Below, one piece after another: positions 18,606 through 29,591 of a DNA stretch of 36,716 nucleotides; position 1 is the first letter of the stretch, and every line of letters starts with the position of its first letter. The notes below the pieces were generated by a model that was given only the letters and a program-made list of their open reading frames with translations, was not told where the DNA came from and ran no database searches. The stretch covers positions 1-36,716 of the forward strand of contig JAIPGP010000031.1 in assembly GCA_021735645.1 (NCBI GenBank), in the 5' to 3' direction. The DNA is from Candidatus Cloacimonadota bacterium (lineage in GTDB: Bacteria > Cloacimonadota > Cloacimonadia > Cloacimonadales > TCS61). A program made the position numbers and the translations under genes.

Positions 18606-18766
18606 GTTAAAACACAAATTCACGTTGTTTACCCGGTTTACAATGTTAACTGATTTCGAGCAAAGATGCCCAATTTTCTTGATTGGTATCTCCCTGTTTT
18701 ATTAAAAAGTTGCTATAGATATCTCAATAACTTATAGATATTTAGGCGTATTTTACAGCAAATTTT

Positions 18767-18973
18767 TCATTCTCATTAACACCAGGTTTTTAACCTGGTG
18801 AGAAGCGAAAAAGAATATGGCTTGAGTGGCTTCAGCCACTTCTCATAATAATAATTTATTCCCGTCTGGATTTTATTATAACGAACTCAAATACAAAGGG
18901 AAGCCACTGAAGTGACTATACATCGTTCGTTCATCATTAACCTCTAAATAAATTTAGGGGTTAATGAGAATGA
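18767..18973. mobile_element. MITE-like 207-bp element with 14-bp terminal inverted repeats
   Basis: The ends are TCATTCTCATTAAC (18767-18780) and its exact reverse complement GTTAATGAGAATGA (18960-18973). Three internal hairpins are visible. CACCAGGTT/AACCTGGTG lies at 18780-18800, AGTGGCT/AGCCACT at 18825-18840, and a 15-bp arm pair with one G-T wobble at 18935-18966. An imperfect AGCCACTGAAGTGACT occurs at 18902-18917. There is no transposase and no open frame, as expected of a non-autonomous element. No clear target-site duplication is seen. Confidence 0.6.
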
Positions 18974-19007
18974 TCCATTGATGCTATTGGAAACCTAAAA
19001 TGAAATT

Positions 19008-19024
19008 AATTCCGGGGGGATGCC
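19008..19024 (+). promoter_or_regulatory. Shared G-rich upstream motif, copy 1
   Basis: AATTCCGGGGGGATGCC occurs here and, identically, at 27336-27352. Both copies lie 70-100 bp upstream of a plus-strand start codon, and both are followed 15-19 bp later by TTGACA and then an A/G and AATA. It may be an operator or part of a dispersed repeat. Confidence 0.5.
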
Positions 19025-19039
19025 CGATTTATTTGATTC

Positions 19040-19068
19040 TTGACAAAATATCCAGAATAAAAAATTAT
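19040..19068 (+). promoter_or_regulatory. Possible promoter of the pRiA4b ORF-3-like gene
   Basis: TTGACA at 19040-19045 is a perfect -35 hexamer. The best -10 candidate at 17-bp spacing is AATTAT (19063-19068), 4 of 6 bases. The start codon is at 19098. Confidence 0.35.
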
Positions 19069-19097: not shown

Positions 19098-19703
19098 ATG
19101 GCAGAAAAAATTAAGTATGAACCTAAATTACTGCTGCTTCGCATCAAACTGGAATACATTAGACCATTTATCGTTCGCAAGGTGGTTGTCCGCAATACTA
19201 TCTCTTTTGCTGATCTTCATGACATTATCCAGATTACGATGGGCTGGGAAAATGAGCATCTTTACAGCTTCTCTAAAGGTAACATTTACATTGATGATGA
19301 TCATGGTGATGATGAAAAAGATGATTTTTTTAACCTTTTCCCTTCCCGTAATAAATATCTCTCTGCTTCTAATAATCCTATTGCCAGATTCCTCAATGAG
19401 CCTAAAGATAAAGTTAAATATGAATATGATTTCGGAGATTCCTGGCTGCACCAGATTTCTGTCAGCAAGGTATTAGAAAATGACCCCCGCCTTATTCACC
19501 CAGTCTGCAAAAAAGCTTCCCGAGCCTGTCCCCCGGAGGATTGCGGCGGTGTTTACGGCTATTACCGCATTCTGAATGCCCTGAATTCCGAGGAAAAAGA
19601 TGAAGATGATGAATCATACCTTGAATGGGTCGGTGAAGATTATAATCCGGAATTTACCGATATTGATATAATTAACAGCTGGCTGAGAAAAATCAAAATG
19701 TAA
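19098..19703 (+). CDS. Plasmid pRiA4b ORF-3-like protein
   Basis: This 201-residue protein has the hallmarks of the pRiA4b ORF-3-like family. These are an N-terminal L-R-I-K-L-x-x-I-R-P-x-I-x-R beta/alpha start (14-27), a helix ending I-T-M-G-W (46-50), the Y-E-Y-D-F-G-D-S-W motif (108-116) and the CPPEDCGG motif (144-151). The end is acidic. The family is widespread on plasmids, mobile elements and chromosomes. Its biochemical role is not established, so none is claimed. AAAGGA stands about eight bases before the ATG. It is a single gene with a possible TTGACA promoter, 124 bp from the MITE-like element. It converges on the lapA-like gene. A short TCTCCA/TGGAGA hairpin lies in the 3' gap without a T run. 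Confidence 0.85.
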   Translation: MAEKIKYEPKLLLLRIKLEYIRPFIVRKVVVRNTISFADLHDIIQITMGWENEHLYSFSKGNIYIDDDHGDDEKDDFFNLFPSRNKYLSASNNPIARFLNEPKDKVKYEYDFGDSWLHQISVSKVLENDPRLIHPVCKKASRACPPEDCGGVYGYYRILNALNSEEKDEDDESYLEWVGEDYNPEFTDIDIINSWLRKIKM

Positions 19704-25832: not shown

Positions 25833-26378
25833 GGTTAATCTTTACAATCAATTAAGATTGATCAGAAGACTGTTCGATATGTCACCTGCTTTGACCTGAG
25901 AATGGGTTTCTGTCCATTGCAAGTCTCAGAAATGCTGATTAATATCCCCTATCCACCTGTTTTATTTAACTCAAGTTTCGCAGAAGCATAAACGTGTTTA
26001 TATAGTGCATTTTAAAAATTAATAAAGCACAAATATGGCGATTAAACAGCAATAATAAAAGCAGATTATTTCATATTTACATTTTTAGACAAATTGTCAG
26101 AGTTATTAACCGGAAGGGACTAACTACGGGCAAGAATGTAATCCAGTTTAGGGCTGTACTCAGGGTAAGACTGGATGGTATTAGTTGATTGGAATAGGTG
26201 GTGAGATAGGCGTTCATCACGAATTATCGGGACTGGCTTACCTTATTTCTTACACTATATTTTTCAGCGTAATTCAGTGATTTCCGCGGAAGATAATCTT
26301 ATATTACATTTTTTTTCCTTCGCTGCAAAAAAAATCAAACACAAATGCCGCAAAATGACACGAACAAAACAACATTAA
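25833..26378. other. Gene-free intergenic DNA before the hairpin array
   Basis: No open frame with a plausible start and composition is seen on either strand. The stretch is AT-rich. The only link to its surroundings is ACTCAGGGTAA near 26159, a word also present in the spacers of the array that begins at 26379. Confidence 0.6.
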
Positions 26379-27300
26379 TGTAGATTAATCGTCCTCGATT
26401 AATGTTTTATATAATGATCAATCGGGGACGATTGATCTACGATAAGAACTCAGGGTAAACGGTTCATCATCAGCTTATCTATGTAGATTAATCGTCCTAG
26501 ATTAATGTTTTATAGAATGATCAATCGGAGACGATTGATCTACAATAAGAACTCAGGGTAAACGGTTCATCATCCACTTGTTTATGTAGATTAATCGTCC
26601 TCGATTAATGTTTTATTGAATGATCAATCGGGGACGATTGATCTACAATAAGACCTCAGAGTAAACGGTTCATCATCAGCTTATTTATGTAGATTAATCG
26701 TCCTCGATTAATGTTTTATAGAATGATCAATCGGGGACGATTGATCTACAATAAGACCTCAGGGTAAACACTTCATCATCAGCTTATCTATGTAGATTAA
26801 TCGTCCTCGGTTAATGTTTTATAGAATGATCAATCGGGGACGATTGATCTACAATAAGAACTCAGAGTAAACAGTTCATCATCCATTTATTTATGTAGAT
26901 TAATCGTCCTCGATTAATTGTTTTATATAATGATCAATCGGGGACGATTGATCTACAATAAGACCTCAGAGTAAACGGTTCATCATCAGCTTATTTATGT
27001 AGATTAATCGTCCTCGGTTAATTGTTTTATATAATGATCAATCGGGGACGATTGATCTACAATAAGAACTCAGAGTAAGCAGTTCATCATCCACTAATTG
27101 ATGTAGATTAATCGTCCTCGGTTAATGTTTTATAGAATGATCAATCGGGGACGATTGATCTACGATAAGAGCTTAGAGTAAACAGTTCATCATCCATTTA
27201 TTTATGTAGATTAATCGTCCTCGATTAATGTTTTATAGAATGATCAATCGGGGACGATTGATCTACAATAAGACCTCATGGTAAGCAGTTCATCATCCAC
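26379..27300 (+). repeat. Nine-copy ~103-bp tandem array of paired hairpins
   Basis: Units start with TGTAGATTAATCG at 26379, 26482, 26585, 26688, 26791, 26894, 26998, 27102 and 27205, giving periods of 103 (six times) and 104 (twice). Each unit has a ~62-bp structured half ending in GATTGATCTAC, and a ~41-bp spacer containing variants of CTCAGRGTAAACGGTTCATC. The structured half holds two local hairpins. Hairpin 1 has arms ATTAATCG and CGATTAAT with loop TCCT. Hairpin 2 has arms ATCAATCG and CGATTGAT with loop GGGA. The two hairpins are also complementary to each other across a GTTTTATAGAA-type centre. The second hairpin is identical in eight of nine copies. No cas genes or variable spacers are present, so it is not a CRISPR. 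Confidence 0.95.
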
Positions 27301-27335
27301 CCTTTCAGGGTGAAGATTAAACAAGAATCCTGAGA

Positions 27336-27352
27336 AATTCCGGGGGGATGCC
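27336..27352 (+). promoter_or_regulatory. Shared G-rich upstream motif, copy 2
   Basis: This is the same 17-base word, AATTCCGGGGGGATGCC, as at 19008-19024. It sits between the hairpin array and the channel gene. TTGACA follows at 27372-27377, then GAATAG. The best -10 match (TATAGA, 27392-27397) is only 14 bp away, so the promoter itself is uncertain. Confidence 0.5.
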
Positions 27353-27449
27353 AGGCAAATAAATAAAATATTTGACAGAATAGTAGTTACATATAGACAA
27401 TTGCAACATAATATTAAACTAAGTTATATGGGTTATGAAGGAGCAGACT

Positions 27450-29591
27450 ATGAAAAAGAATATATTTAAGCAGATCAGGAATATAGTAAGATATAAAAGC
27501 GAATTTATACTTTCGCGAAATCCCGCTGTTCAGATAGCCATGCTGGCAATAGTAGCATTATTTATTACTATGGTGGCAACTTTAGTTCTCAAGCTTACCC
27601 AGATCATGCCGACAGAATGGAAACTGCTTCCTCTTCCAAAACTTGTCTGGAATAATCTTATGCGGGTAATGGACCAGGGCACCATGGTCAATGATGAAGG
27701 TTCCTGGCTTTTTTTACTCATAATGCTCACGACTACGGTCTTTGGTCTAATTATTATCAGTACCCTGATCGGTATTATCACTGAAGGGTTTGATTCAAAA
27801 GTGGAAGAACTGAATAAAGGCAGATCAGCCGTCATCGAAAAGGGACATTTTATCATTTTGGGCTGGTCAGCAAAAATATATCATATCATCAACCAGTTGA
27901 TTATCGGTAACATTCTTTCCGATACCGGCCTCGGAAAGCCCTGTATCGTAATTCTGGCAGATAAAGACAAGGTAGAAATGGAGGATGCTATTTACGATAA
28001 TTGCCGGAATTCCAGGAAAGCCAAAATAATCTGCCGGTCCGGAAACCCGATTATCTTAGAAAAACTGGGAAAACTCTCTCTCGATAAGGCAGATACGATC
28101 CTGATACTTGCTTCCGAGAAAAAGAATCCTGATACTTTTGTCTTTAAAATTGTGCTGGCAATTATCAGTTTATGCTCTAAAAAAGATAAACATAAAACAA
28201 CGTGTAAAACCGTTATAGCTGAAATCTTTGAAAAGAAAAATGAAGCCCTCCTGACTGATCAAATTAATAAATGCCAGATGAAAAATGAAATTAACTTCAT
28301 CGCGCTTAATTCCAGTCAGATCATCTCGGAAATTATTGCCCAAACCTGTATTCAGCAGAAACTCTCCCGAGTATATTCAGAATTGTTAAAATTCGATAAA
28401 AATGACAATGAAATTTATTTTGAAAAAGTAGCCAAATTCCGCGGTATTAATGAATCAGATACTTTCCAGGACTTAATGTTCAAGTTTGAAAATTCCTGCC
28501 TGATCGGTTATATGAAAGCAAACTCGAAGGATCAGGATAATAAAATTGTCATTAACCCCTTATCTGAGCAATATGGAAATGAAAAACTGCTTCCAGAAGA
28601 TGAATTGATCTTTATAGCCAGACAAAGAAAGGAAATTAAATTTATAGTGAAACATCATGACAAGCAAGGAAAAAAAACCAGTCCCGATATCGTCAGAAAA
28701 CAGAAATTACCCATATCCAATACTATCATTTTTGGCTTCAATAAAAAAATTTTCAGAATAATTGATGAACTGGAAAATTATATTAATGAAGGCTCTTCGG
28801 TTAAGATCATTGCCAAAGTTACTGAAGAAAATGAGAATGAATACAAGGATTACAAGGAATCTATTAAAGAGAAGGGTGAAAGGAAACAGACCCTGAAGTT
28901 AATTAAAATTGCAGAACAAATTATCGATCAGAATATCATTGAAAAAGAGATATTCAATATTACAAAAGATAAAGATGTTAAGACTGCTATTCGTAAAAAA
29001 ATTAAATGCGATAATATCATTATCTTGAATTATGGTAATTTGAATAGTCATAATGCCAATCAGGAAGTCGCCTTTTTAGAGGAAATTGATGCCATCACAA
29101 TTAAGTCATTGCTCAATATCAGGAAGTATTTTGAACTTAATAAGCAATTTAAAGAAGATGGGTTCTCAATAGTCACTGAGATGAAATTTGCCCATAATAA
29201 AGATGTGATCCCTTCCGGTGATGAAGATGAATTTATCATCAGTGACGAAATTATCAGTTCTATCATCGCCCAGACTGTTCTAAATAAAAACCTGGGTAAA
29301 GTATATCAGGATATTTTACTGAAATCTAATAAATGTGAAATATATCTGAAAAATGCTGGCTGCTATGCACCCTTAGGGACAGAAACAACATTTAATGACC
29401 TGATCCGCTCAGGAATCGAATTTAATGAAATTGTAATAGGCTATATCTTTGCAAAAAAAGGTAATCCGGAACTTGAAGAAGATGAAATCCATTTAAATCC
29501 TGACAGGCAACTGCTTGTCACATTTCAAAAGTATGATAAAGTGATCACTATCGCCAATGACTTCACTTTCTATCACCCTCAGAGTAAATAA
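27450..29591 (+). CDS. CASTOR/POLLUX-like ion channel with two RCK-type domains
   Basis: This 713-residue protein has two hydrophobic segments (about 28-52 and 85-110) flanking a pore-like stretch. After them comes D-S-K-V-E-E-L-N-K-G-R-S-A-V-I-E, then G-H-F-I-I-L-G-W-S, which closely resembles the linker and first nucleotide-binding strand of plant CASTOR/POLLUX channels and their bacterial relatives. A second Rossmann-like repeat begins near residue 423 (T-I-I-F-G-F). In plants these are calcium-regulated nuclear cation channels. Ion choice here is unknown. The frame is open from an ATG at 27435, but AAGGAG (27438-27443) lies six bases before the ATG at 27450, which is the better start. It heads a plus-strand group with the next three genes, right after the hairpin array. 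Confidence 0.85.
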   Translation: MKKNIFKQIRNIVRYKSEFILSRNPAVQIAMLAIVALFITMVATLVLKLTQIMPTEWKLLPLPKLVWNNLMRVMDQGTMVNDEGSWLFLLIMLTTTVFGLIIISTLIGIITEGFDSKVEELNKGRSAVIEKGHFIILGWSAKIYHIINQLIIGNILSDTGLGKPCIVILADKDKVEMEDAIYDNCRNSRKAKIICRSGNPIILEKLGKLSLDKADTILILASEKKNPDTFVFKIVLAIISLCSKKDKHKTTCKTVIAEIFEKKNEALLTDQINKCQMKNEINFIALNSSQIISEIIAQTCIQQKLSRVYSELLKFDKNDNEIYFEKVAKFRGINESDTFQDLMFKFENSCLIGYMKANSKDQDNKIVINPLSEQYGNEKLLPEDELIFIARQRKEIKFIVKHHDKQGKKTSPDIVRKQKLPISNTIIFGFNKKIFRIIDELENYINEGSSVKIIAKVTEENENEYKDYKESIKEKGERKQTLKLIKIAEQIIDQNIIEKEIFNITKDKDVKTAIRKKIKCDNIIILNYGNLNSHNANQEVAFLEEIDAITIKSLLNIRKYFELNKQFKEDGFSIVTEMKFAHNKDVIPSGDEDEFIISDEIISSIIAQTVLNKNLGKVYQDILLKSNKCEIYLKNAGCYAPLGTETTFNDLIRSGIEFNEIVIGYIFAKKGNPELEEDEIHLNPDRQLLVTFQKYDKVITIANDFTFYHPQSK

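Follow-up and report, generated by a model that had tools for sequence, protein, structure and literature searches.

A probable MITE of an IS4-type insertion sequence lineage, inserted beside −35-like sites in Cloacimonadota

The window, that is, the whole stretch of DNA analysed here, comprises 36,716 nucleotides from a Candidatus Cloacimonadota bacterium (assembly GCA_021735645.1, contig JAIPGP010000031.1). Upstream of a gene for a pRiA4b ORF-3-like protein, it contains a short, non-coding element of 344 bp with terminal inverted repeats at its ends, 18683 and 19026. The initial annotation had placed a MITE-like element inside this region, at 18767–18973, with exact 14-bp inverted repeats as its termini. 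These repeats exist; TCATTCTCATTAAC at 18767–18780 has its exact reverse complement at 18960–18973, and imperfect matching extends to 17 nt at 94%. They are, in fact, the stem of an internal module. In alignments, similarity among the best copies runs past 18767–18973 and stops at two related ends, which differ from the 14-bp repeat and measure approximately 12–14 bp each. The features of the locus are as follows.

18673–18682, forward strand: left copy of the degenerate target duplication (TSD), ATTTTCTTGA, read directly; 8 of its 10 bases equal the right copy
18683–19026, forward strand: whole MITE, A-end to B-end, 344 bp, delimited by alignment to other copies and their common ends
18683–18696, forward strand: A-end, TTGGTATCTCCCTG; family type CTGGCATCCCCCTG
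18767–18973, forward strand: internal hairpin module (the element of the initial annotation), closed by the exact 14-bp inverted repeat
18780–18800, forward strand: perfect hairpin, CACCAGGTT/AACCTGGTG
18825–18840, forward strand: palindrome AGTGGCTTCAGCCACT, also in long-range pairing with 18900–18917
18934–18967, forward strand: hairpin, TCATTAACCTCTAAAT/ATTTAGGGGTTAATGA
19012–19026, reverse strand: B-end, family type CTGGCATCCCCCCGAAATT read inward; promoter-proximal, IRR-equivalent
19027–19036, forward strand: right copy of the degenerate target duplication, ATTTATTTGA, read directly
19040–19045, forward strand: TTGACA, −35-like target anchor, 3 bp past the TSD
19098–19703, forward strand: downstream gene, pRiA4b ORF-3-like protein (PF07929)

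Beyond the B-end, the order is thus the degenerate 10-bp TSD, TTC, TTGACA at 19040 and the pRiA4b-like gene at 19098. As the two copies of this TSD differ at two positions, and the TSD+3 rule described below was used to fix its length, the window copy serves as an illustration rather than as independent evidence. The element-rich genome G020 has an ortholog of this gene (61% identity) that is likewise preceded by TTGACA, at a comparable spacing from the gene start, and by no element.

Across the MITE family, the outer ends are asymmetric, with an A-end of the type CTGGCATCCCCCTGTTTT and a B-end of the type CTGGCATCCCCCCGAAATT. The three hairpins noted in the initial annotation are real, as is the lack of coding capacity (the open reading frame list holds no ORF of at least 60 aa within the 207-bp core), and a long-range stem joins 18825–18842 to 18900–18917. 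Folding of the 207 nt gives z = −6.6, with none of 200 shuffles equalling or beating it; an Rfam scan of the window matched no family. Full-length copies of the core have CTGGCATCCCCC-like ends about 84–101 bp (A side) and 53–67 bp (B side) outside it. Subfamilies have their ends in common, and not their interiors; nearly all interiors are hairpin-rich, with z-scores that are rough owing to small shuffle numbers. Because the hairpin-rich interior varies between subfamilies, it is probably dispensable for recognition. A related core, read by eye, sits inside a different frame in G020; the 670-bp composite at G020:C73:51522–52191 (L195) holds a window-like core within a frame typical of another genus, which suggests that modules are exchanged between elements.

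The initial annotation would have been refuted by the lack of any second copy, which is not the case. With at most one mismatch, the 14-mer occurs 32 times in the host genome and its reversed control 3 times, so the repeat is not a product of chance; the 261-bp region has 41 matches. The end pattern gives 83 matches against 0 for the reversed control and, with two mismatches allowed, 191 against 4. At two ends per element, the host has roughly a hundred elements (of the order of 95) in 3.77 Mb, copy numbers here being those of pattern searches. End pairs in the host span only elements of about 140–490 bp and tandems, with no larger pairs; the pairs of 650–680 bp in G020 are one tandem and one composite, neither with coding capacity. 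Among named genomes, only Cloacimonadota MAGs, Candidatus Stygibacter among them, contain the exact B-end pattern, and the distribution among relatives is patchy. The description as MITE-like is supported, the element being multicopy, non-coding, patchy and flanked by target duplications, with its boundaries corrected to 18683–19026. MAG contigs break at these repeats, and the empty sites in relatives that had been suggested as a check yielded no clean case in a joined-flank comparison of the loci collected.

Some individual copies deserve mention. In L073, L075, L079 and L101 (G000 C28, C37, C45 and C84), tandem elements are split by copies of one target duplication, and look as if a single promoter site had been used repeatedly. 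Two pairs of loci from sister species, L144 with L120 and L149 with L155, each have one orthologous gene preceded by different elements, which suggests separate insertions at a single promoter region. L159 (G026:C42, element from 1501) keeps its A-end intact and has a 19-bp duplication with 1 mismatch; TTGACG comes next, and no B-end can be recognised. The window itself has a second element, at 26374–27354. Its B-end (27336–27354) is followed by TTGACA 19 bp past GGATGCC, upstream of a gene at 27435; inside, palindromic units are repeated in a tandem array of 9 copies and 103 bp, and no A-end can be recognised. The gene (27435–29591) encodes a protein with a Castor/Pollux-type ion-channel domain (PF06241).

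The target rule emerges from 38 distinct paired elements in five genomes, chosen because both ends and a direct repeat were present, irrespective of TTGAC. Their TSDs vary from 10 to 18 bp; the family thus comprises many copies with target duplications, that of the window copy being degenerate (8/10). In 28 of the 38, TTGAC lies on the B side at +3 (25 elements) or +4 (3 elements, each compatible with a one-base ambiguity in the repeat) past the TSD. Only one other TTGAC falls within 12 bp; it sits at +0 on the other side of an element counted among the +3 cases. The ten elements without TTGAC at +3/+4 include tandem re-insertions with a duplication in common and others that carry TTGCC or TTGATA. 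TTGACA occurs 15–23 bp from B-ends, and not so at A-ends; the orientation of insertion is fixed, with the B-end facing the promoter.

A candidate source for the transposase was found by clustering ORFs near elements, which led, in the congener G025, to a transposase gene enclosed by two such ends. This insertion sequence (IS) has IRL CACTCATCCCCCCGAAATT and IRR CTGGCATCCCCCCGTTTTT, and its duplication ATTTTGTAATAA is followed by ATA and then TTGACA. Autonomous relatives of about 1.5–1.7 kb are present in Cloacimonadota, and 32 of 125 genomes of this phylum have transposase matches at E < 1e-20; plasmids and viral contigs gave no relative of the transposase. The complete ISs with TSDs (9, 10, 11, 12, 13, 17 and 18 bp) have TTGACA exactly at TSD+3 on the IRR side in 7/7 cases, and a tally of the listed flanks finds TTGACA in 25/27 IRR flanks vs 1/12 IRL flanks.

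The predicted transposase has a DDE triad (D105, D195, E337) that is invariant in 14 homologs and conforms to the IS4 spacing D(60–110)D(100–150)E, and an exact YREK motif, Y(2)R(3)E(6)K, in 14/14 aligned homologs. Pfam DDE_Tnp_1 matches above its cut-off; the match to Tn5 transposase is marginal, and NCBIfam IS4/IS701 models all remain below cut-off (best, IS4_3, 43 bits vs a cut-off of 160). On the strength of the DDE triad and the exact YREK motif, the enzyme is taken as a member of the IS4 family and, since the motif definition is satisfied despite the sub-cut-off models, as a divergent subgroup.

The initial annotation had proposed a transposase acting in trans. This is supported by related genomes, in which there are autonomous copies whose ends are of the same kind (the G025 IS, L200/L223). 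A transposase gene between such ends is thus found in G025; the host assembly has no intact one, only a weak relic at C75, which is why we can only infer mobilization in the host species. Element-rich G020 likewise has no transposase beyond a relic. The host's only above-cut-off DDE_Tnp_1 match (C4:289–999) was considered as the mobilizer and rejected, as no such ends lie nearby. The G025 IS is not the exact parent of the MITEs, because the opposite end type is promoter-proximal: GTTTT in the IS, GAAATT in the MITEs. Some G025 elements keep transposase remnants beside an end, suggesting internal deletion, with this evidence coming from G025 and not from the window's subfamily.

Taken together, the element is very probably a MITE of an IS4-family IS lineage found in Cloacimonadota. 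In the proposed mechanism, an IS4-type transposase, encoded elsewhere or since lost, would bind both MITE ends in trans and excise the element by cut-and-paste, the mode by which IS10 and IS50 transpose. One strand transfer would be fixed by the promoter's −35 region, 3 bp upstream of TTGACA; the second would float, 9–18 bp upstream. The −35/−10 promoter would be left intact downstream of the inserted MITE. Insertion would then probably cost the host little, allowing copies to build up.

Judged by their surroundings, the TTGAC sites behave as −35 boxes of host promoters would. At the spacing expected of a promoter, −10-like hexamers are over-represented (TAnnnT, 21% vs 7%), and a ribosome-binding site with a gene start follows at 45/68 insertion sites, about twice as often as at other TTGAC in the same loci (295/1003; p = 3e-9). 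The L198 insertion site, as read directly, precedes an apparent tRNA-Leu gene. How the promoter is recognised admits two readings. The transposase of a genuine MITE may simply read TTGAC as DNA, the promoter link being a by-product of where TTGACA is tolerated rather than of recognition of promoters or RNA polymerase. This is a serious contender that falls only a little short of an even chance; it accounts for a nearly invariant TTGAC beside a merely moderate enrichment of the −10 match, and for the roughly one-third of insertion sites at which no gene start was detected. The excess of gene starts over other TTGAC and the −10 enrichment at the correct spacing speak against it, although selection against insertions within genes could contribute to the former and could also yield both. 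The other reading, which we put forward tentatively and with some doubt, is that the IS4-type lineage independently evolved promoter tethering, in which bound RNA polymerase (sigma region 4 at −35, possibly alpha-CTD upstream) would hold one strand transfer in place 3 bp before TTGACA and leave the second to float 9–18 bp farther upstream.

Variable TSDs with one fixed boundary would also be expected of a SINE-like structured RNA inserted by target-primed reverse transcription, in which the initial nick would be sequence-specific, near TTGACA, and the other one loose. The strong structure of the elements and the L159 copy, with its TSD and missing B-end, would suit such a process. It is nevertheless very unlikely; both ends are normally precise, autonomous copies that follow this target rule carry a DDE transposase gene, and the reverse transcriptases detected, which are DGR-like, group-II-like or unassigned, show no relation to how abundant the elements are. 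By eye, the reverse transcriptase loci L186, L188, L190 and L191 resemble diversity-generating retroelements, several of them near formylglycine-generating-enzyme-like proteins.

Strong folding and a position upstream of genes could likewise indicate an immobile regulatory or structural RNA element conserved in place; given site-unique TSDs, many copies, tandem re-insertions and the patchy distribution, this is highly improbable. Least credible, to the point of being negligible, is a casposon-like element whose Cas1 attacks a leader-like anchor first and then a second site at ruler distance. The anchor adjoining a long TSD resembles Cas1 integration, but Cas1 is absent from element-rich G020 (97% completeness) and the ISs bearing such ends have a DDE transposase gene. 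The host has a cas1 gene at G000:C123:7588–8424.

For the favoured reading, a MITE mobilised by an IS4-type transposase, promoter-side integration would now extend to a DDE family unrelated to the Mutator-like enzymes, with the near TSD edge locked to −35 and the far edge variable. If true, tethering would be a bacterial counterpart of Ty3-style targeting and a departure from the fixed stagger of DDE transposition. Two questions become testable, namely promoter recognition by the transposase and the tolerance of a DDE enzyme for variable stagger. There is also a practical side: across Cloacimonadota, a phylum with few experimental data, both the elements and candidate host promoters could be annotated by a simple rule.

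As set out in the sections of PMC2266710 drawn on here, the IS4 family comprises the subgroups IS231, ISH8, IS4Sa, IS4, IS10, IS50 and ISPepr1, with DDE and YREK as its signature, subgroup TSDs of 7–13 bp, and strong insertion specificity mentioned for some elements. By comparison with these sections, the source IS resembles the family in its DDE spacing, exact YREK, single ORF, size of about 1.5 kb, and ends that start with C, then A or T. Unlike the subgroups, it has variable TSDs of 9–18 bp, which overlap with the approximately one helix turn (7–13 bp) of IS4 but exceed the published range. It also differs from the family in its anchor, a −35-like TTGACA that it adjoins in a single orientation, and in scoring below cut-off with NCBIfam IS4 models. 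IS1634/IS1549, an IS4-related lineage, share variable-length target duplications (8–514 bp; PMC2266710); their YREK is incomplete, in contrast to the complete motif here, and the same sections describe no promoter anchor for them.

Among prokaryotic MITEs, Correia, MITEAba12 and BrickBuilt, the last containing a minisatellite (PMC10969869, PMC4596501), are likewise short, non-coding, intergenic elements with inverted ends that are mobilised in trans. Unlike the present family, they have no strict −35 spacing described in those papers, and the interiors here are modular and hairpin-rich.

The closest parallel in action comes from TnGBS/ISLre2 (p-MULT 3) and the ISKra4 group (p-MULT 4), which insert about 13–17 bp upstream of sigma-A promoters with IRR proximal, using Mutator-like transposases (PMC3942029). 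The MITE similarly inserts in one orientation upstream of apparent sigma-A-type promoters, about 12–21 bp from −35, with the IRR-equivalent of its asymmetric ends beside the promoter. It is not a member of these groups; the transposase belongs to a different family, its sole Pfam match being DDE_Tnp_1 with no Mutator or UPF0236 model, and the MITE's distance varies with TSD length, the TSD edge far from the MITE lying 3 bp from TTGACA. The open-access papers searched gave no account of IS4-family elements targeting promoters; an earlier report is possible, given this scope and the strong insertion specificity mentioned for some IS4 elements (PMC2266710). Promoter targeting itself is known with Mutator-like transposases; its combination with an IS4-type enzyme and variable TSDs appears to be new.
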